In this document: positions 6,977 to 17,517 of the stretch, in pieces
Layout: each line of letters opens with the position of its first letter
Position numbering within the stretch: the first letter of the stretch is position 1
Assembly: GCA_003153435.1 (NCBI GenBank)
Contig: PLYR01000125.1
Span: 1 to 64,000 of the forward strand
Direction of reading: 5' to 3'
DNA from: Bacteroidota bacterium
GTDB lineage: Bacteria > Bacteroidota > Bacteroidia > Palsa-965
DNA length: 64,000 nucleotides
The notes under the pieces: generated by a model
What the model was told of the DNA's origin: nothing
Database searches by the model: none
The model's input: the letters and a program-made list of their open reading frames with translations, nothing else
Position numbers and translations under genes: made by a program

Positions 6977-9214
6977 ATGGTTCCCAAACGGATCTTTTGC
7001 CTCCTTCCCTTCCTTATCGTATGTCATTACTCTTTTTCTCAGATGAGTTTTCGGAGGAATGATTCAATTCCAGTGGTCTATGGCACCGATACACTTCCTA
7101 ATGCCTGGACCGGAGGACTCAATTTCTGCCAGTTTTCTGAAATCGATCTGAATCTCGACGGGATCATGGATCTGGCGGTCTTCGACCGTCAAGGGACGAA
7201 TGGTGGCCGGATTTCCTGCTTTCTGAATAAAGGCACGCTGAATCAGGTATCGTATGTAAATGCTCCGGAATATGTTTTCAGGTTCCCTCCTATTCAACAA
7301 TGGATGCTGCTGGCAGATTATAACTGCGATGGCAAAGCAGATATCTTTACGCATACCACCTTCGGCATCATGGTCTACGAAAATACCTCCACCATTGGGG
7401 GTGGTTTGTCATTTCGTCTCGCAACCGGACTGGTGTTTTCGGATTACGGAAGCGGAACCATCACAAATCTGTATGTGAGCACGGCAGATATGCCCGCTAT
7501 TGTTGACGTGGATGGTGACGGCGACCTCGATATCGTAACCTATTGCATTACCCCAACCGGTGTTGAATATCATAAAAACATGTCGATGGAACGCTACGGA
7601 CGATGCGACAGTTTGAACGCTTATGTATTAGACCACAATTGCTGGGGTGCATACTCCGATAACGGAACCAATTGTCAGAATTATATTACTACAGGAGTCA
7701 CGCCATGCCCTATCAACCGTTATGCAAACCCGGATACCGCTCATCAAATGGAGAAACATAGCGGAAACTGTATTCTTTGCTTCGAGGCCGACGGCGACAA
7801 GGATAAAGACATTATGATAGGACATGTAGGCTGCCCGAATATGACGGAAATGAAAAATACAGGTGACAGCGCCTCCGCTACCTTCGTCAACCCGGATTAT
7901 ACGTTTCCCTCTTATGATGTGCCTTTGAATATGAATGTCTTTCCCTGCGGGTATCTGGCGGATGTAGACAACGACGGGAGAAAAGATGTGCTTTTCAGTC
8001 CTAATAATGAGCAGGAAGGCGCGGCGGAGGATTTACAAAGTATTGCATGGTACAAAAATGTGGGCACGGCTGACTCCACGATATTAAGATTTCAGCAAAA
8101 TAACTTTCTTCAGAGTCAGATGATTGATGTAGGAGAAGGGGCCTTCCCGGTGCTTCATGATTATGATGGTGACGGTCTGGCCGATTTATTCATCGGAAAT
8201 TTCGGGTACTTCCATCCCGATACAACCCGGCCTATGATTGCCTGTTTCAGAAATACAGGAACTTCCACACATCCTGCCTTTACACTTGTGACCCGCGATT
8301 TTGCAGGCATCTCTGCTGCACTTCGCGGACTTACTGAATTTGCAATTACATTCGGTGATCTGGATGGAGATGGTGATGCCGACCTGGTGGTGGGTGATTA
8401 CCAGGGTCACCTCTATTACTTCGAGAAGTTCCCAGGTGCGCCTGATAACTATGTGTATCAACCAGGCTTCTTCCCAAATATCCATGTGGGAGGCTATGCC
8501 ACCCCTCAGCTCATTGATCTGAACAGAGACGGGAAACTGGACCTCGTCGTAGGTGCTCGGAATGGCAGGATTTACTATTATCAGAATACCGGCACTGCTA
8601 CAAGTCCTGCCTTCTCAGCCACTCCAACATCCGACTCCCTCGGTCGGATAAGCACCATAAAAACAGGCTATGTAACCGGTTATGCGGCCCCCTTCTTCTA
8701 CGACGAAGCTGGGTCTTACAAACTACTGATTGGTGAGGAGAGTGGAATCATAAGGAAATATGGAGATATAGATGGTAACCTCAATGGCGCCTTCACCCTG
8801 CTTGACCCACTCGTCGCTTATATCGGTGAAGGGGAACGCTCTGTACCTTTTGGTTATGATCTGAACGGAGACGGCCTCATGGATATGGTGGTCGGGAATT
8901 TCTCTGGCGGTGTCGAGTTTTATGCAGGCAGTAATGCTTTAGGAGTGTTTAACTATCAGCCTCCCGCCGGTTTCGACTTCTCCTTTATTCCAAACCCTTC
9001 CGAAAATGAAACCCTGCTTCAGATAAAGGATTTTAAGTTTGGAGAAAAATACAATTTCACACTGACTGATCTCCTCGGGAAAACTTTACGTGAATTCGAA
9101 TGCTGCTCTGAACAGATCATGATCCCAACCAGTGATCTTCCTTCCGGACTCTACCTCGGGAATGTATATTCATCCCACTCCTCTGCCCATCACAAACTGA
9201 TTGTGAGGCGATAA
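6977..9214 (+). CDS. FG-GAP/VCBS repeat secreted protein with type A T9SS C-terminal sorting domain
   Basis: 745 aa; signal peptide; nine DxDxDG-like Ca loops (e.g. DVDGDGDLD, DYDGDGLAD, DLDGDGDAD); C-terminus FIPNPSENETLLQI...LTDLLGKTLREF...SDLPSGLYLGNV...HKLIVRR. Confidence 0.9.
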   Translation: MVPKRIFCLLPFLIVCHYSFSQMSFRRNDSIPVVYGTDTLPNAWTGGLNFCQFSEIDLNLDGIMDLAVFDRQGTNGGRISCFLNKGTLNQVSYVNAPEYVFRFPPIQQWMLLADYNCDGKADIFTHTTFGIMVYENTSTIGGGLSFRLATGLVFSDYGSGTITNLYVSTADMPAIVDVDGDGDLDIVTYCITPTGVEYHKNMSMERYGRCDSLNAYVLDHNCWGAYSDNGTNCQNYITTGVTPCPINRYANPDTAHQMEKHSGNCILCFEADGDKDKDIMIGHVGCPNMTEMKNTGDSASATFVNPDYTFPSYDVPLNMNVFPCGYLADVDNDGRKDVLFSPNNEQEGAAEDLQSIAWYKNVGTADSTILRFQQNNFLQSQMIDVGEGAFPVLHDYDGDGLADLFIGNFGYFHPDTTRPMIACFRNTGTSTHPAFTLVTRDFAGISAALRGLTEFAITFGDLDGDGDADLVVGDYQGHLYYFEKFPGAPDNYVYQPGFFPNIHVGGYATPQLIDLNRDGKLDLVVGARNGRIYYYQNTGTATSPAFSATPTSDSLGRISTIKTGYVTGYAAPFFYDEAGSYKLLIGEESGIIRKYGDIDGNLNGAFTLLDPLVAYIGEGERSVPFGYDLNGDGLMDMVVGNFSGGVEFYAGSNALGVFNYQPPAGFDFSFIPNPSENETLLQIKDFKFGEKYNFTLTDLLGKTLREFECCSEQIMIPTSDLPSGLYLGNVYSSHSSAHHKLIVRR

Positions 9215-9223
9215 ATTCGCCTT

Positions 9224-10174
9224 CTAACTTTTGCTTTTGAAAAAAATATTCTGCTGAAGAGTGAAAAAGAAAGCAGGATCATTATGTGCCCATGACCTGT
9301 TGTAAATAGGTGTTGCAACAGAAAGATCAATCCGTGTATTCGAGTGAATAATAAATTGCACAGAAGGCCTGAACTCTACATAACTTCCTGATTCGAGAGC
9401 CGGAACATGATGGATCATGACCTCTCTTCCGTTTTCAGAAATCACGGCACCATCATAGGCCTTGCATTGAAACTCAGCATAGAGATTAATGTTCGTCTGA
9501 TTATAATTACGGTAGGTACCAGGGTAAACCAGATACCCTAAACTCAGATTCAGATAAGCTGCCTTTCCATAAGATATTGCAACACCAGAAAATGCATCTG
9601 TATAATCCGTAGGCACAATGCCACCTGTATTGATGGATACTGCAAATTTATGAAGGAGCAAGGTAGCAATGAGCCCTGCACCGGCACCACCGTTATCACC
9701 GATCAGTTCCGGCTCCGCTTCATAATGTGCTTCATTTCCACCCGCAAGATCCAGATAAGCCGCCATCCGGAAGTGCCTATGCTCCGAATCGTGACTAAGG
9801 AAACGGTATTTGATATTTACATCCAGAGACTCAAAGAGGTAAGGATAAGGACTTCCACGTTTAACCCCATTGGTGTATGGATTCCCCAGTGAGTCGTGTT
9901 GAATAAATCCTCCTGGAAGCCTAGGACTGTGATGATTTGAAAAACTGAATGTTTCAGTCAGCATCCACTTAGAGGATAGACCGAACATAAACTTATATGC
10001 CTGAAAACTCCGCGTCTGCCCTCCGTCTTCAAAAAATTCGGAAGAAGCTCTGACGGCAAGTACATTCTTCCCAACATTACTAGCTGGATCATTGTGAGGG
10101 AATAATTCCTGAGCACAAATGAAGGAATGGAGAAAACTTGAAAAGAGGAAAAAAAAGAGGAAACGATTCTTCAC
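9224..10174 (-). CDS. Predicted outer-membrane beta-barrel protein (paralogue of 11200..12180)
   Basis: 316 aa; signal peptide ...CAQELFPHNDPAS; alternating hydrophobic strands; GTG start overlapping the upstream TGA stop (GTGA). Confidence 0.7.
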   Translation of the reverse strand: MKNRFLFFFLFSSFLHSFICAQELFPHNDPASNVGKNVLAVRASSEFFEDGGQTRSFQAYKFMFGLSSKWMLTETFSFSNHHSPRLPGGFIQHDSLGNPYTNGVKRGSPYPYLFESLDVNIKYRFLSHDSEHRHFRMAAYLDLAGGNEAHYEAEPELIGDNGGAGAGLIATLLLHKFAVSINTGGIVPTDYTDAFSGVAISYGKAAYLNLSLGYLVYPGTYRNYNQTNINLYAEFQCKAYDGAVISENGREVMIHHVPALESGSYVEFRPSVQFIIHSNTRIDLSVATPIYNRSWAHNDPAFFFTLQQNIFFKSKS

Positions 10175-10698
10175 ATCACTACGAAGTAAATACGCCCGGA
10201 AGGGTTGGGTTTGGACTGAGAAGTCTCCGAATTGATATAAGCCTTATAAGGTTTGTATTCGCTTTTTTTCATGTATTTATCTGCTACGAACACCAGCTGC
10301 TTATCGCCTTTCAGTTCCACAGCATCTGTTCCAAGAATCATATAGGTATCAGAACCGGCCGACCAGGATTTTCCGTTTAAAACCTCATTTGTAAAATGAT
10401 AAGTAGCGGTGACCTTGCCGACAGAAAACCCTGCATCATATACTTTCAACACCAACTGGTCTATAGAAACAGCTTCCCCTGGTTTAAAGGTGATTTCTGC
10501 TATGTTTGAATTCAGGTCCATTTTCACATCCTGTACAAACTTGAGCTGACGAATGGAACGTTCTGTGGCATAAGAACAGGCGGAACATGTCAAACCTACT
10601 ACATTCAGCTTCGCTCCGCTGAACTGAGCCATGGCCGGGAGACAGAGCGTAAGTGCAATACTTAGGATTGCCAACTTTGAAAACAGAAATCTTGTCAT
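10171..10698 (-). CDS. Exported heavy-metal-associated (HMA) domain protein
   Basis: 175 aa; signal peptide then LNVVGLTCSACSYATERSIRQLKFVQDVKMDLNSNIAEITFKPGE (GxTCxxC HMA signature). Confidence 0.85.
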   Translation of the reverse strand: MTRFLFSKLAILSIALTLCLPAMAQFSGAKLNVVGLTCSACSYATERSIRQLKFVQDVKMDLNSNIAEITFKPGEAVSIDQLVLKVYDAGFSVGKVTATYHFTNEVLNGKSWSAGSDTYMILGTDAVELKGDKQLVFVADKYMKKSEYKPYKAYINSETSQSKPNPSGRIYFVVM

Positions 10699-10702
10699 AA
10701 CC

Positions 10703-10732
10703 CAAAGTTATTAATTCATTTCCTAATCTCAA
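10703..10732 (-). promoter_or_regulatory. Consensus Bacteroidota promoter (TTG-N19-TAACTTTG) for the HMA gene
   Basis: Minus strand TTG (10732-10730), 19-nt spacer, TAACTTTG (10710-10703), 4 nt before the ATG. Confidence 0.65.
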
Positions 10733-10789
10733 AAAACACCTCACTTATATTATGACAAATATCATCCCAAAAGCGGGGAAAAATATCCT

Positions 10790-10797
10790 TACCTTTG
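10790..10797 (+). promoter_or_regulatory. Candidate -7 box (TACCTTTG) for the lipoprotein/barrel gene pair
   Basis: TAnnTTTG match 19 nt upstream of ATG 10817; no clear -33 TTG. Confidence 0.45.
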
Positions 10798-10816
10798 ATC
10801 ATCTATCGATCGCTTC

Positions 10817-11200
10817 ATGAAAAAAATTATCGCCCTCTTGTTTCTGGCTTCAGTGGTCCTCGCCTTTAATTCATGCTGCAAAGGGGGATCGGGAGGAAAT
10901 GCCACTTTGAATTGCGCTATTTTCCATCATTCCAAACCTATTCCAGGAGCTACTTTGTATATTAAGTATAACGCCACCGAATTTCCAGGCACCGATGCAT
11001 CCTCGTACAGCGACCATAAAACGGCTGCAAATAATTCAAATGCGATCACCTTTGCCGGGCTTCACTGCGGAGACTACTATCTGTATGGAGTTGGATTCGA
11101 CTCTACACTTGGTCTTCCTGTAACTGGAGGGATCCATTTCCAGATTAAATATTCGGACCGAAGCCATACTGAATCCACCAATGTACCCGTGACTGAATAA
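10817..11200 (+). CDS. Small putative lipoprotein
   Basis: 127 aa; MKKIIALLFLASVVLAFNSCCKGG lipobox-like N-terminus; TAATG overlap with the next gene. Confidence 0.7.
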   Translation: MKKIIALLFLASVVLAFNSCCKGGSGGNATLNCAIFHHSKPIPGATLYIKYNATEFPGTDASSYSDHKTAANNSNAITFAGLHCGDYYLYGVGFDSTLGLPVTGGIHFQIKYSDRSHTESTNVPVTE

Positions 11201-12180
11201 TGTACCGGAGATTAATTATCATCGTTGCTTTTGGTCTTTCCTTTCAGGGAATCCTATGTTCACAGGAACTGTTTCCTACTTCAGAGCCAGCAAGTACCAT
11301 ACCCAAAGGTGTGATCGGAACAAGACTCACAACAGAATCTTATAAAGAAGTTTCGATATACAGAAACCTTGCTTCCGCAAGACTCATGTATGGCTTGTTC
11401 TCCAACTTAACAGTCATGGCTAATTTTACGGAATCTAACCACCACGGTGTTGATTTCCCTTCCGGCCTTGCTACACATACTCATAATGGCAACAAGTCTG
11501 TCTTCAGCAGCGGAAACTTTCAGAGAGGACTCGTTTATCCTTATCTCTTTACTGGTATAGATCTCTATGCAAAATTCCGCTTCTTTAACAGAGATGGTGA
11601 GCATAGTCATCTGCGGATGGCTCTGTATGGAGAGTGGTCGAATGTAAGTGTCGCTCATGATGAAGCTGAACCTACACTTCTTGATGATACAAAAGGCTAT
11701 GGCGGGGGACTCATCATTACGGTATTAAAGAATCATTTGGCTATTTCTTTAACAAGCGGAGTTATAATCCCGGGTTCATACGACGGCATGTCACCTGATC
11801 CGCTGGGAGGACCAGATGTACCTACCACACTTACCTATGGTAAGGCTGTAAAATATGATCTTTCAATCGGATACCTTTTATTCCCTGCCAAGTACCATAA
11901 CTACGACGAACCCAATATCAATGTATATCTGGAATTCAAAGGCAAATCATATGGAGAGGCTTCCATCGTCCAATATGGAATCAAACCAGTACCTATTCAG
12001 ACTCCTCTACTCCAGGCCGGCAATTATGTAGACCTGTTTCCGGGTATTCAAACCATTCTTCATTCCAATATGCGGATCGATTTTTGTGTGGGTTTTCCTG
12101 TAATCAACCAGAGTTATGCCCATTTTTACCCGGTTTATATGTTCGGAATTCAGCGGTATTTTTACCTCCATAAAAAGTAG
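11200..12180 (+). CDS. Predicted outer-membrane beta-barrel protein (paralogue of 9224..10174)
   Basis: 326 aa; shares with its paralogue QELFP..xPAS, SNHH, YPYLF, EHxHxRMAxY, HxEAEPxL, YGKA, NYxxxNINxYxEF, HSNxRID. Confidence 0.7.
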   Translation: MYRRLIIIVAFGLSFQGILCSQELFPTSEPASTIPKGVIGTRLTTESYKEVSIYRNLASARLMYGLFSNLTVMANFTESNHHGVDFPSGLATHTHNGNKSVFSSGNFQRGLVYPYLFTGIDLYAKFRFFNRDGEHSHLRMALYGEWSNVSVAHDEAEPTLLDDTKGYGGGLIITVLKNHLAISLTSGVIIPGSYDGMSPDPLGGPDVPTTLTYGKAVKYDLSIGYLLFPAKYHNYDEPNINVYLEFKGKSYGEASIVQYGIKPVPIQTPLLQAGNYVDLFPGIQTILHSNMRIDFCVGFPVINQSYAHFYPVYMFGIQRYFYLHKK

Positions 12181-12225
12181 GCAATTTGCATCTGCTATGC
12201 TTATCCGATCTTCTCTTTTTATGAC

Positions 12226-12233
12226 TACCTTTG
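12226..12233 (+). promoter_or_regulatory. Candidate -7 box (TACCTTTG) upstream of the short HTHC protein
   Basis: TAnnTTTG match 8 nt upstream of ATG 12242. Confidence 0.4.
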
Positions 12234-12241
12234 TAACATAA

Positions 12242-12577
12242 ATGAATCGCCTCCGCAAACCGATAGCTCTCTTCCTCATTCTGGTATTATGTTTTTACAT
12301 AGTTCCAAAAGAGTTTATCCATGAGCTTTATGGGCATACGGATACAACCGATTCTGCAGCGGAATCCTCTTCCACTGCAAAATCACCACTTTCTCTCAGC
12401 TCCCAGCATACGCATTGTGAATTACTGAATTTTGAGACGACAGTTTTTTATACTCAGGATAACCAACCTGTAATTGCCGTTCAGGCAATCGCTTTTTATT
12501 TCCAGTCCCCAACCCATGACAATTCCATACGAAACTGTCATGCCTTTATCTCTCTCCGCGGCCCTCCAAATTGCTGA
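12242..12577 (+). CDS. Short exported/anchored protein with a His/Cys motif, upstream of a TonB receptor
   Basis: 111 aa; hydrophobic N-terminus, FIHELYGH, SSQHTHCEL, C-terminal SLRGPPNC. Confidence 0.6.
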   Translation: MNRLRKPIALFLILVLCFYIVPKEFIHELYGHTDTTDSAAESSSTAKSPLSLSSQHTHCELLNFETTVFYTQDNQPVIAVQAIAFYFQSPTHDNSIRNCHAFISLRGPPNC

Positions 12578-12652
12578 GTTTCAGAATTCCTTGCGGAAGG
12601 ATCTTCTTCATTCCGGATGCTCCAGATTCTATAACTTTTAAATCATCAGCAA

Positions 12653-15163
12653 ATGAAAAATATTCTATATTTTTTAAATCTCTTTATGCTGCTTTCTGTC
12701 GGAAAAGAGAGTGTCGCAGGAATAGATTCCAGAATCCACTCTGCTTATCCAGAAGCAGGTAAAACAACTTTATCAGGCAAAGTAACCGACAAAAGCACAC
12801 AACAGCCCTTGCCCGGCGCTACTCTTTATATAGAAGAACTTAAAAGCGGGGCCGCTACCAATGCGGATGGCTTATATTTGATTAAAGACCTGCCTCAGAT
12901 TAAAGTCGTTCTCCAGGTTAAGTGCCTTGGCTACAAAACACTCCTCGTTAATATTGACTTGACACAGGTAAAAACCAAGGATTTCGAACTCGAACCGGCC
13001 ATTACCGAAGTGAATGAAGTGGTCATTACAGGGATGTCAAAAAACACAGAGATCAAAAGAAGTCCTGTGCCTATTGTAGTGGTGGACCAGAAATACCTTC
13101 AACAAAATCTAGGCACGAACGTGATCGACGGGATCAGTCATGTTCCCGGAATCAATGCGGTGACTACAGGACCCAATGTTTCCAAACCTTTTATCCGTGG
13201 ACTAGGTTACAACCGCGTACTAACGCTTTTTGATGGGGTCCGACAGGAAGGACAACAATGGGGTGATGAACATGGGATTGAAGTGGATGAATACGGAGTA
13301 GACCGGATTGAAATCATCAAAGGGCCGGCAAGCCTCACCTACGGTTCAGATGCAATGGCCGGTGTAGTCAATCTGCTGCCTCCACATCCGGCATTACCCG
13401 GAAGAATAGACGGAGAATTCTTCAATAACTATCAAAGCAATAACGGCCTCATCGGAAACTCCCTGATGCTTCAGGGCAACCAACAAGGGTTGGTATGGAG
13501 AGCAAGGGTTTCTCATAAGATGGCCACTAATTACGAAAACCCGATTGATGGACATGTCTACGGCACTGCATATCAGGAAACAGATGCAAGTGCATTTGTG
13601 GGATTGAATAAGGAATGGGGCTATTCCCACCTAAGCTTAACTGCTTATGACGACCTTCAGGAAATTCCCGATGGCAGCAGGGACTCTATCTCCCGCAAAT
13701 TCACTAAACAGATTACAGAAGCCGATACTTTTCGTCCTATCGTTTCGGATGCCGAACTGAAGGAATATAAAATTGCTATCCTTCACCAGCATGTACAGCA
13801 TTACCGCGTGTACTCCTCCAACAGTTTTGTGGTGGGAGAAGGCAAGCTTGAAGTGGGAGCCGGATTTCAGGAAAGCATCCGAAGGGAGTATGATCATCCC
13901 CAGGCCCCCGATGTGGCCGGTTTGTACTTGGTGCTTCAGACCTTTAATTACGATCTTAAATACCATCTTCCAGAATGGAAAGGATTTGAAGGCACGATAG
14001 GAGTGAACGGAATGTATCAGGAGAATGTTAATAAAGGAACAAATTTTATTATTCCTGATTACAATGAATTTGATATCGGGCCTTTTGCCTTTGTCAAGAA
14101 ATCATTTAATAAACTAGATATAAGCGGGGGTGTACGCTATGATAACCGCTCTTTCTCGAACACTGGAATGTATGTAAGACCTGACCCTGTAACCGGGTTC
14201 AGCACTCAGGTGCATACTCCCGACACTGCAGGTGCATCTCATCCTTTTTCAGATTACAAGCATACCTTCAGCGGGGTTTCAGCTAGCATTGGAGCTACCT
14301 ATATATTCTCTGACAATATTTCTTTAAAAGCGAACGTAGCCAGAGGTTACCGGGCTCCGAACATTTCTGAAATATCTGCCAACGGAGTTCACCCCGGCAC
14401 CAACCTTTATCAGATTGGCAATCCTGATTTTCAGCCTGAGTTCAGTCTTCAGGAAGATATCGGCTTGTTTCTTTATACCAAGCACGTTTCAGGCAGTATC
14501 GAATTGTTTAATAACAATATAAGCAACTATATTTTCGATCAGAAGTTACAGGGAGCAAATGGAAAGGATTCTGTGATCATTGCAGGAAACCAGACTTTTA
14601 AATACCAGGCAGTCAATGCACAGCTATACGGAGGTGAGTTAAGCATTGATCTGCATCCCCATCCTCTCGACTGGCTTCACTTTGAAAATGCTTTGTCAGT
14701 TATTTATGCAGTGAATAAAGGAGCTGCAGGAATTCAGATTCCTGATGATGCTAAATACCTTCCTTTTATCCCCCCTCTGCATACCCGCTCTGAACTTCTC
14801 GCTGAGTTCAAGAAAAAATTCAAACACTTTGCAGGCACCTTTGTTCAGTTTGGAGTTGAATATTATGCCAAACAGGACCGGGCTTTTACAGCTTACAATA
14901 CCGAAACACCCACTCCTGCTTATACGCTAATGAATGCCGGAATTGGAACTACCATCACCCGTGTTTCAGGTACAACACTTTTCAGGATTTCACTTCAGGG
15001 AAATAACCTCGGAGATGTTGCTTATCAAAGCCATCTCAGCAGACTGAAATATTTTGAACCCTACCCGAACAACGGATCCGGACATGCTGGAATCTATGAT
15101 ATGGGAAGAAACATCAGTGTCAAGCTGACTATTCCATTCGATGTTCAGAAGCCTAAAGCCTGA
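12653..15163 (+). CDS. TonB-dependent receptor with N-terminal carboxypeptidase-like regulatory domain
   Basis: 836 aa; LSGKVTDKSTQQPLPGATLYIEELKSGAATNADGLYLI; plug domain GTNVIDGISHVPGINAVTTGPNVSKPFIRGLGYNRVLTLFDGVRQEGQQWGDEHGIE. Confidence 0.93.
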   Translation: MKNILYFLNLFMLLSVGKESVAGIDSRIHSAYPEAGKTTLSGKVTDKSTQQPLPGATLYIEELKSGAATNADGLYLIKDLPQIKVVLQVKCLGYKTLLVNIDLTQVKTKDFELEPAITEVNEVVITGMSKNTEIKRSPVPIVVVDQKYLQQNLGTNVIDGISHVPGINAVTTGPNVSKPFIRGLGYNRVLTLFDGVRQEGQQWGDEHGIEVDEYGVDRIEIIKGPASLTYGSDAMAGVVNLLPPHPALPGRIDGEFFNNYQSNNGLIGNSLMLQGNQQGLVWRARVSHKMATNYENPIDGHVYGTAYQETDASAFVGLNKEWGYSHLSLTAYDDLQEIPDGSRDSISRKFTKQITEADTFRPIVSDAELKEYKIAILHQHVQHYRVYSSNSFVVGEGKLEVGAGFQESIRREYDHPQAPDVAGLYLVLQTFNYDLKYHLPEWKGFEGTIGVNGMYQENVNKGTNFIIPDYNEFDIGPFAFVKKSFNKLDISGGVRYDNRSFSNTGMYVRPDPVTGFSTQVHTPDTAGASHPFSDYKHTFSGVSASIGATYIFSDNISLKANVARGYRAPNISEISANGVHPGTNLYQIGNPDFQPEFSLQEDIGLFLYTKHVSGSIELFNNNISNYIFDQKLQGANGKDSVIIAGNQTFKYQAVNAQLYGGELSIDLHPHPLDWLHFENALSVIYAVNKGAAGIQIPDDAKYLPFIPPLHTRSELLAEFKKKFKHFAGTFVQFGVEYYAKQDRAFTAYNTETPTPAYTLMNAGIGTTITRVSGTTLFRISLQGNNLGDVAYQSHLSRLKYFEPYPNNGSGHAGIYDMGRNISVKLTIPFDVQKPKA

Positions 15164-15196
15164 GTCAAAAGGGCTTAATTTCGTAACTTTATAAAT

Positions 15197-16666
15197 GTGA
15201 AACGGTTCGTCCTTCTCGTTTTTATGCTCTCGCCTGCACTTTTTTTTCAAACCTGCAGGCATGATGATCCTGTGCTTGAAAACGCAGGGTACCCTAATTC
15301 GGTTGGGAAAATAATTGCAGGTAAATGTGCCGTCCCCGGTTGTCATAACTCCCAGAGCGCTGGAGCAGCTTCCGGCCTTGATCTTACCTCCTGGACGACT
15401 ATGTTTTTGGGTGACCGGAGCGGAAATGCAGTTACCATTCCATTCTCGCATAAATTCAGTACTACTTTTCTGTTCACCAACACCTTCCCCGATATGGGCA
15501 TAAGTACCATCCGTCCGACCATGCCTGTGAACGGAGCCCCCCTCTCCCGTGATGAAGAGGTGACATTAAGAAACTGGATTGATCAGGGTGCACCCGATCG
15601 AAACGGATTCATAAAATTTTCAGATAACCCAAGTCGCAAAAAATTCTACGTCGCAAATCAGGGTTGTGATGTAGTCACTGTATTTGATGAAGCGTCCTTA
15701 CTGCCGATGCGATATATCCCCATCGGTATCGGATCTCCTCATGATACTCCACATAATGTGAAGGTATCACCCGACGGGCAATCCTGGTATGTATGTTTCC
15801 TGGGTTACCCGTATCTTCAGAAATACAGCACTGCAGATGACCATTATGAAGGGGAGGCTTATCTGGGTTATGATGCTTACAATACTTTCACCATAACCAG
15901 TGATTCAAAAAAAGCATTTGTCGTTGGTTATAATGAAGGCAAGCTTGATGAAGTCGACCTCAACACCATGACTTCAATGGACACGCTAAATATAGGACAG
16001 AGCTATATGCACACCATTCTGCTGAACCCGGCTAATAATGCGCTTTACATAACAGTATCCTATGGAAATTATATTTTGCGGATATTTCCCTCTATAGATA
16101 GTCTCGCCAATTATAGCACGGTAGAGCTCGACGGCTCTCACACCCCTTCTTCCACAACCTTACACCGAATGGACGCCCACGACATGATCTTTTCTCCGGA
16201 TGGAAGCAAATATTTTGTCACTTGCCAGACCAGCAACGAAGTGGTCGTCATGAATGCCTCCAATGATGCCCTGCTTCAGCGAATTCAACTGCCTCCTTTT
16301 TCCAAACCGCAGGACCTGAGTGTCAGCGCTTCGAAGAACCTTGTATTTGTTACCTGTATGGAAGATACCATTTCTTTCCCTGGCATGAGAGGATCGGTGT
16401 TTCCAATTAATATGAGCAGTTTTCAATTGCTTCCACCAATCAATGTAGGATTTCAACCGCATGGACTAAGCGTAGATGATGTGAAAGGACTCGTCTACGT
16501 AGCCAACCGGAATATCGATCCAAATGGGCCTGCCCCCCATCATACTACCGATTGCGGTGGAAGGAATGGCTACCTGACAATCATTGATCTCAACACCTTG
16601 AATTTATTACCGGGGAAGAAAGTTGAACTTGCCAGTGATCCTTACTCTGTTTCAATCCGTAATTAA
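15197..16666 (+). CDS. YncE-like beta-propeller protein with N-terminal CX4CH cytochrome-like segment
   Basis: 489 aa; GTG start; IIAGKCAVPGCHNSQSAGAASGLDL...RNWIDQGAPDRNG then repeated VSPDGxxxYVxx / FSPDGSKYFVTCQ propeller motifs. Confidence 0.8.
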   Translation: MKRFVLLVFMLSPALFFQTCRHDDPVLENAGYPNSVGKIIAGKCAVPGCHNSQSAGAASGLDLTSWTTMFLGDRSGNAVTIPFSHKFSTTFLFTNTFPDMGISTIRPTMPVNGAPLSRDEEVTLRNWIDQGAPDRNGFIKFSDNPSRKKFYVANQGCDVVTVFDEASLLPMRYIPIGIGSPHDTPHNVKVSPDGQSWYVCFLGYPYLQKYSTADDHYEGEAYLGYDAYNTFTITSDSKKAFVVGYNEGKLDEVDLNTMTSMDTLNIGQSYMHTILLNPANNALYITVSYGNYILRIFPSIDSLANYSTVELDGSHTPSSTTLHRMDAHDMIFSPDGSKYFVTCQTSNEVVVMNASNDALLQRIQLPPFSKPQDLSVSASKNLVFVTCMEDTISFPGMRGSVFPINMSSFQLLPPINVGFQPHGLSVDDVKGLVYVANRNIDPNGPAPHHTTDCGGRNGYLTIIDLNTLNLLPGKKVELASDPYSVSIRN

Positions 16667-17070
16667 TGAAGAAAGAGGAAAAGATTATTGTACTCTTTGA
16701 TGGTGTCTGCAACTTTTGCAATGCGACAGTTAACTTCATTCTTCTCAGAAACAGGAAAGACCGTTTTCGTTTTGCGGCTCTTCAGTCGGATATTGGAAAG
16801 AAATTGCTGAAGGAATACCACCTTCCGGCAGATAACAACTCCATCGTAGTTATCTCAAACGGAAAAGTCTACCGGCAATCTGCGGCTATTTTGATAATCA
16901 CACGGAACCTTAGCGGGGCCTGGTCCCTATTATATGTTTTTGTAATCATTCCTCCTTTTATCAGGAATGGGCTCTACCGTTGGTTTGCACGCAACCGTTA
17001 CAAATGGTTTGGGAAAACAGAGCTTTGTATGATTCCGGATGAAAACGTAAGGAACAAATTTTTAGTCTGA
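16666..17070 (+). CDS. DCC family thiol-disulfide oxidoreductase (DUF393)
   Basis: 134 aa; IIVLFDGVCNFCNATVNFILLRNRKDRFRFAALQS; TAATG overlap with the upstream gene. Confidence 0.9.
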   Translation: MKKEEKIIVLFDGVCNFCNATVNFILLRNRKDRFRFAALQSDIGKKLLKEYHLPADNNSIVVISNGKVYRQSAAILIITRNLSGAWSLLYVFVIIPPFIRNGLYRWFARNRYKWFGKTELCMIPDENVRNKFLV

Positions 17071-17076
17071 GCGTTT

Positions 17077-17517
17077 TCATTTAATTGAAGGTATTTCGAG
17101 GGTCAAAATCTTCTTTTTATAATCAATCACTGCATTGTATTTTTTCAACATATCTCCTCCAATAACTCCGTCAATTGCTTTCATGTTCATTTCTTCATAG
17201 GAGGCATTAACATGACTTAGATCAAGCACAATGACCTTGAGTCTACGAAGCAAAATTTCACCAAATTCAAATTCATCGATGACAACAGAATGGCTTTCCA
17301 TTGAACTTGTGCCAAGGCCTGTACTCTTGTTATCACCCTGCTTGAGTTTAGGATCCGGAATGAATCTTTCAATCCTTGTTTTATCGAAGACTGTATTGGA
17401 GGCTCCTGTATCAACAATCAAAATGCCGGGTTTATGGTTTATCCTGAGTTTAATGAGGAGGTGCACTCCGCTATTGTTCAATCTGACAAATTTGATTTTT
17501 ATGGTCGTTTTTTTCAT
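17077..17517 (-). CDS. Retropepsin-like aspartic protease family protein
   Basis: 146 aa; GILIVDTGASNTVFD (DTGA active-site motif) and VIGGDMLKKYNAVIDYKKKILTL. Confidence 0.85.
   Translation of the reverse strand: MKKTTIKIKFVRLNNSGVHLLIKLRINHKPGILIVDTGASNTVFDKTRIERFIPDPKLKQGDNKSTGLGTSSMESHSVVIDEFEFGEILLRRLKVIVLDLSHVNASYEEMNMKAIDGVIGGDMLKKYNAVIDYKKKILTLEIPSIK

Follow-up and report, generated by a model that had tools for sequence, protein, structure and literature searches.

A conserved gene pair for an exported HMA protein and an outer-membrane barrel in Bacteroidota: a candidate soft-metal conduit beside an older surface block

Described outer-membrane metal systems and the layout of the locus

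In the PcoA-PcoB and CopB systems for copper tolerance, two coupled genes encode a periplasmic copper protein, which in the case of PcoA is a multicopper oxidase, and an outer-membrane barrel. The pcoAB genes of Caulobacter have been reported to overlap by 4 nt (PMC12509749), a role in letting copper in has been proposed for PcoB (PMC9210255), and the direction of flux through PcoB is debated (PMC9210255, PMC12509749). An inventory for one member of the Bacteroidota contains no dedicated porin (PMC11213822). Barrels with 12 strands are also found in the COG4313/PF13557 (Phenol_MetA_deg) group, and in one of its members, Pput2725 (COG4313), a segment N-terminal to strand 1 folds into the lumen (PMC4493636). 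MerP, CopZ and Atx1 are metallochaperones that have the HMA fold with a CXXC motif. Further copper proteins are those of the MbnP/MbnH, CorA/CorB and MopE types, the copper role of MbnP in Bacteroidota being itself inferred.

Here we describe a block of eight genes within the window, by which we mean the whole stretch of 64,000 nucleotides that was analysed (Table 1). Two of its genes recall PcoA-PcoB in coupling a putative periplasmic metal protein to a predicted outer-membrane barrel; the partner of the barrel is an HMA protein and not a multicopper oxidase. The HMA gene and barA lie on the minus strand and the remaining six genes of the block on the plus strand. Gene families were assigned by Pfam and NCBIfam profile searches, and all eight genes of a preliminary description were recovered together with their motifs, namely GLTCSAC in the HMA protein, SNHH in both barrels, CAVPGCH in the propeller protein, CNFC in the DCC protein, and EHxHxRMA and HxEAEP, which read EHRHFRMA/EHSHLRMA and HYEAEP/HDEAEP in the two barrels. 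Where several 4-nt overlaps had been reported, the overlap of the HMA gene with barA is indeed 4 nt and likely reflects translational coupling, but lipoprotein/barB and propeller/DCC overlap by 1 nt each.

Table 1. Genes and promoter-like sites of the locus, by position in the window
Feature	Positions	Strand	Remarks
FG-GAP repeat protein, type-9 secretion sorting tail	6977-9214	+	Recurrent syntenic neighbour
barA	9224-10174	-	Predicted 12-stranded outer-membrane barrel; AF2 pLDDT 93.3; no Pfam/NCBIfam family
HMA-domain protein, exported, 175 aa	10171-10698	-	PF00403, 32.7 bits (gathering cut-off 24.8); AF2 pLDDT 90.5
TAACTTTG, Bacteroidota-type -7 promoter-like site	10703-10710	-	12 nt before HMA gene; site and distance identical in sister species
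TACCTTTG promoter-like site	10790-10797	+	27 nt before lipoprotein-barB; kept in sister species
Lipoprotein (Cys20; invariant HH, H37 H38)	10817-11200	+	Partner of propeller gene in other genomes
barB, second barrel	11200-12180	+	39% identity to barA; separate supported clade
TACCTTTG promoter-like site	12226-12233	+	16 nt before HTHC-TonB
HTHC micro-protein, secreted, Cys/His-containing, C-terminus RGPPNC	12242-12577	+	No family match
TonB-dependent receptor	12653-15163	+	PF00593, PF07715, PF13715; TonB barrel 122 bits
CX4CH cytochrome c-like domain fused to YVTN-type propeller, lipoprotein	15197-16666	+	
DCC1-like thiol-disulfide oxidoreductase (CNFC)	16666-17070	+	PF04134, 111.2 bits (cut-off 27.8)
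Retropepsin-like aspartyl protease	17077-17517	-	With malate dehydrogenase, far edge of the old syntenic block

Promoter-like sites of the Bacteroidota -7 type (TANNTTTG) stand before the HMA, lipoprotein and HTHC genes and before no internal gene, which suggests that the locus may be read as three transcripts. Only the position of these sites counts, because the motif occurs no more often in the window than expected by chance (49 found, 56 expected). Across 78 loci the motif lies near 28% of HMA starts; the corresponding figures are 10% for barrel starts and 8% for random positions.

The HMA-barrel pair

Barrel homologues were found in 47 of 396 Bacteroidia genomes, and in nearly all of 40 sampled regions an HMA protein is encoded immediately ahead of the barrel in the same orientation. 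Scanning named genomes returned at least 568 relatives, essentially all in Bacteroidota, with soil and water members as hosts of the pair. Among the best 80 of these loci, 77 barrels are full-length; the HMA gene is directly upstream of 68 of them, frequently with a 4-nt overlap, and an adjacent HMA gene is missing for nine. The HMA protein and the barrel are thus a real two-gene unit. The suggestion that the locus is a metal-handling envelope locus with a conserved neighbourhood, which loss of this neighbourhood in related genomes would have contradicted, is supported by the persistence of the pairing across Bacteroidota and by the copper or zinc genes that adjoin its relatives. Searches of open-licence papers yielded no description of the pair. 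One barrel (L152) lies on a contig labelled Williamsia, a member of the Actinomycetota and hence of a phylum without such outer membranes, and probably comes from a contaminated or mislabelled bin.

In the window, barB is preceded by the lipoprotein gene and not by an HMA gene. A sister species (L044/L083) has a matching locus in which the order of lipoprotein and barB is preserved and a Met-rich PF13557 barrel and two MbnP genes stand between the HMA and lipoprotein genes; barA was not found in the incomplete genome of this species.

The HMA protein has a signal peptide, an HMA domain at about residues 25-91 that carries the GLTCSAC motif, and a C-terminal domain (residues 92-175) without a clear relative. 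Its CXXC is conserved in 92 of 92 relatives, and the HMA part of the model, and this part only, matches the folds of MerP, Atx1 and CopZ, from which the protein differs in its signal peptide and extra C-terminal domain. In sequence it matches mostly HMA domains of copper proteins, although the HMA type does not determine the metal, and it falls below every NCBIfam equivalog cut-off. A mercury (MerP) assignment was rejected: TIGR02052 scored 28.4 against 92.55 bits, and none of the neighbours that were recognised is a mer gene.

For barA, barB and 40 barrel homologues, no convincing Pfam or NCBIfam family was found, and a sequence search of the barrel against the PDB returned no match. The CopB/PcoB family (PF05275) matches none of these sequences and occurs in none of the 396 Bacteroidia genomes, so that membership of the barrel in CopB was rejected. 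The AlphaFold2 model built on 67 family sequences shows 12 strands by DSSP (pLDDT 93.3), and the best Foldseek matches are FapF, an amyloid secretion channel (TM about 0.5-0.58), and the COG4313 channel 4rl8 (TM 0.54-0.56). Homology to a family with an unrelated role, which would have spoken against a metal function, was not found at the level of sequence families, but the fold is common to COG4313 and FapF. With COG4313/PF13557 barrels the family shares the strand number and a conserved N-terminal segment before strand 1. It differs from them in its metal-gene neighbourhoods, in its own set of invariant residues and in lacking a PF13557 match in 40 members; a profile comparison ties it to the PF13557-type Met-rich barrels of the same neighbourhoods (91% probability). 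In contrast to FapF, no Fap genes were recognised nearby and metal genes are found instead.

Eighteen residues are invariant in the barrel family, a single His (H134, 67 of 67 sequences) and 17 others; they include D129, R136, E234, Q273 and an N-terminal QEL..PAS segment, modelled at pLDDT 80-95 just before strand 1, and comprise no Met or Cys. With both termini set in the periplasm, inner and outer positions were assigned from the order of the DSSP strands and topology rules. Under this topology the long loops face outside, and each of the 18 invariant residues is predicted to sit mid-strand or further towards the periplasm, in a turn or in the N-terminal segment. The outer positions N80, H81, H82, H150, E152 and E154 are present in 42 of 42 members of the clade of the window's barrels and have largely disappeared from the other clade. 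Together with the constancy of H134, the conservation of H81, H82, H150, E152 and E154 in this clade indicates that the SNHH, HxHxR and HxEAEP motifs are not due to chance. The barrels had been called His-rich, which holds for the window's clade, where His makes up 5.5% and Met 1.2% of outer-loop residues, but not for the sister clade, which has fewer His (2.7%) and more Met (5.0%). Within the locus, barA and barB fall into two distinct clades, both supported and old, so that a recent duplication was rejected, and barB represents a different ancient subfamily from barA.

The surface block of TonB receptor, lipoprotein, propeller and DCC protein

The second part of the locus recurs, whole or in part, in genomes without a barrel, in an old syntenic order that runs SecDF, FG-GAP protein, small Cys/His protein, TonB receptor, (MbnP, MbnH, PF13557 barrel), lipoprotein, propeller, DCC, aspartyl protease and malate dehydrogenase. 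The propeller and the lipoprotein occur together in 82 genomes (p=6e-57). The propeller is found in 103 of 396 genomes and the barrel in 47, and their overall association is not significant (p=0.12), although p falls to 0.001 for close barrel homologues. The eight genes had been taken as a single joint module, a view that their distributions and their own promoter-like sites do not bear out; since the old block recurs without the barrel and the co-occurrence of barrel and propeller is weak, the block is better described as two units, one formed by the HMA protein and its barrel and one by the HTHC, TonB, lipoprotein, propeller and DCC genes.

Small genes related to the HTHC gene precede the TonB receptor at other loci (L232, L237, L238 and others). 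The HTHC micro-protein does not match the HYC_CC_PP model (NF047658), whereas a different small gene adjoining sister-clade barrels does. In the plug of the TonB receptor, W203 and H207 are invariant, and no conserved Cys was found among 14 sequences; the receptor scores far below the model TIGR01778 of the copper receptor OprC, which binds through a Cys/Met site (44.5 against 472 bits), and that of the zinc receptor ZnuD (87.1 against 950 bits). The propeller protein, whose family is unnamed, combines CX4CH with an invariant Met, M109, which is likely a heme ligand. Four blades each carry a His at the matching position of the blade (186, 272, 328 and 422); 30 of 33 homologues have these His residues, and the other three lack every one of them. 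This joint loss suggests that the four form one shared site, possibly a metal site beside the CX4CH heme; the homologues without them are divergent and include two of one family, which limits their independence. We hypothesize that the propeller protein acts at the cell surface in redox reactions or metal binding, with cupric reduction as one candidate. A reading as L-NosZ, the clade III nitrous-oxide reductase (NF052460), was rejected at 15.9 against 700 bits.

MbnP and MbnH genes recur in these neighbourhoods; the window has none, but they are found at other places in its genome, on contigs (L165, L166) that carry MbnH-MbnP and a cluster of cytochrome, MbnP, PF13557 barrel and small Cys protein. 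An unnamed small secreted protein with a conserved HCNGKCHL-like Cys/His motif (cluster c4; L046, L060 and others) adjoins MbnP/PF13557 barrels and looks like a metal-binding peptide family.

Metal identity and the proposed conduit

Sister-clade barrels and members of the barA subfamily have CopA-type multicopper oxidases, HMA-AraC regulators, MbnP/MbnH and Cu-type ATPases as neighbours. An AraC-type protein of this kind, its N-terminus formed by an HMA-like domain (about 186 aa), recurs beside L061, L067-L082 and others and is a possible cytosolic copper sensor. A copper-only reading was rejected, as the ATPases beside barB-side relatives are of the Zn/Cd type by motifs and models: all seven metal P-type ATPases near these barrels are PIB-2 (CPCALVIS/CPCGLVVS), and that of L086 scores 500 bits with the cadmium-family model and 351 with the copper model. 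This weakens the metal claim, as does a P-type ATPase near L110, which is a calcium-type pump. The metal of the barrels is thus taken to be copper and/or zinc. Because barA and barB fall into separate clades with different metal neighbours, the window holds, in barA, an HMA-coupled member of a copper-associated subfamily and, in barB, a barrel whose metal may be copper or zinc. A zinc or cadmium (or cobalt) substrate in place of copper, for barB at least, would also agree with Czc-type RND genes at two loci of its wider group and with the His/Glu character of the outer site; we regard it as unlikely, since the zinc-neighbour cases come from only about two lineages, the nearest relatives of barB (L084, L085) adjoin MbnP and a Met-rich barrel and not zinc genes, and the HMA partner resembles mostly copper proteins.

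It is similarly doubtful that all eight genes make up a single system for copper uptake, in which the TonB receptor and surface cytochrome-propeller would reduce and import copper, the barrels would be accessory entry channels and the HMA protein a periplasmic acceptor. TonB, MbnP, MbnH, lipoprotein, propeller, DCC and HMA-barrel genes do co-occur at several loci (L060, L048/L084, L096, L109), and such an entry would fit the copper admission proposed for PcoB, but barrel and propeller occur independently, the promoter-like sites are separate and many barrel relatives adjoin exporters and oxidases. The COG4313/FapF fold also serves hydrophobic or polypeptide cargo, so that the barrel could be a channel of this kind with the HMA protein as metal-regulated cargo or sensor; its best fold matches and its profile likeness to PF13557 barrels are consistent with this, and the metal-gene neighbourhoods, the exchange of His and Met in the loops and the absence of a PF13557 match make it rather improbable. 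A chance neighbourhood, with the pair merely inserted into an unrelated surface block, would explain why barrel and propeller are weakly associated among genomes and why the old block exists without barrels; we consider it very unlikely, as the propeller lies within 12 kb of six and the lipoprotein within 12 kb of seven of 19 close barrel loci, and the lipoprotein-barB order is the same in the sister species.

We lean towards a core two-gene HMA-barrel soft-metal unit with an older surface block at its side, the probable task of which is the acquisition or redox processing of copper, a reading to which we give somewhat better than even weight. By analogy, the unit is best read as a chaperone-fed outer-membrane metal conduit, PcoA-PcoB-like in its working and outside that family. 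Its conservation, gene coupling, predicted fold and neighbourhood are shown by the data above; its membrane orientation, metal binding, hand-over, direction and metal identity are, as we infer them, the following. The exported HMA protein would bind a soft metal through its CXXC in the periplasm, and the barrel would take the metal at its periplasmic mouth (D129, H134, R136, E234, Q273 and QEL..PAS) and pass it to or from the outer His/Glu site (H81, H82, H150, E152 and E154). The route of the metal through the pore is speculative, because H134 is the only His that is invariant in the family, and no Met or Cys is. Most likely the unit would support metal tolerance or efflux, of copper in the case of the barA type, and the TonB receptor, lipoprotein, cytochrome-propeller and DCC protein would form the surface block. 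More tentatively, and with slightly less than even confidence, we propose that the pair represents an undescribed class of outer-membrane soft-metal conduit that stands in for CopB/PcoB in Bacteroidota. In this class the HMA protein would deliver metal directly to a 12-stranded barrel with a plug, and the outer site of the barrel, His/Glu or Met, would have been retuned between clades for different metals.

The passage of copper and zinc across the outer membrane of Bacteroidota is poorly known, and the pair provides a defined, testable candidate, with Pedobacter, Mucilaginibacter and Chitinophaga among its culturable hosts. Its barrels offer a natural His-to-Met series for asking how the choice of metal is set, and many genes now annotated as hypothetical proteins could be named through the HMA-barrel family.
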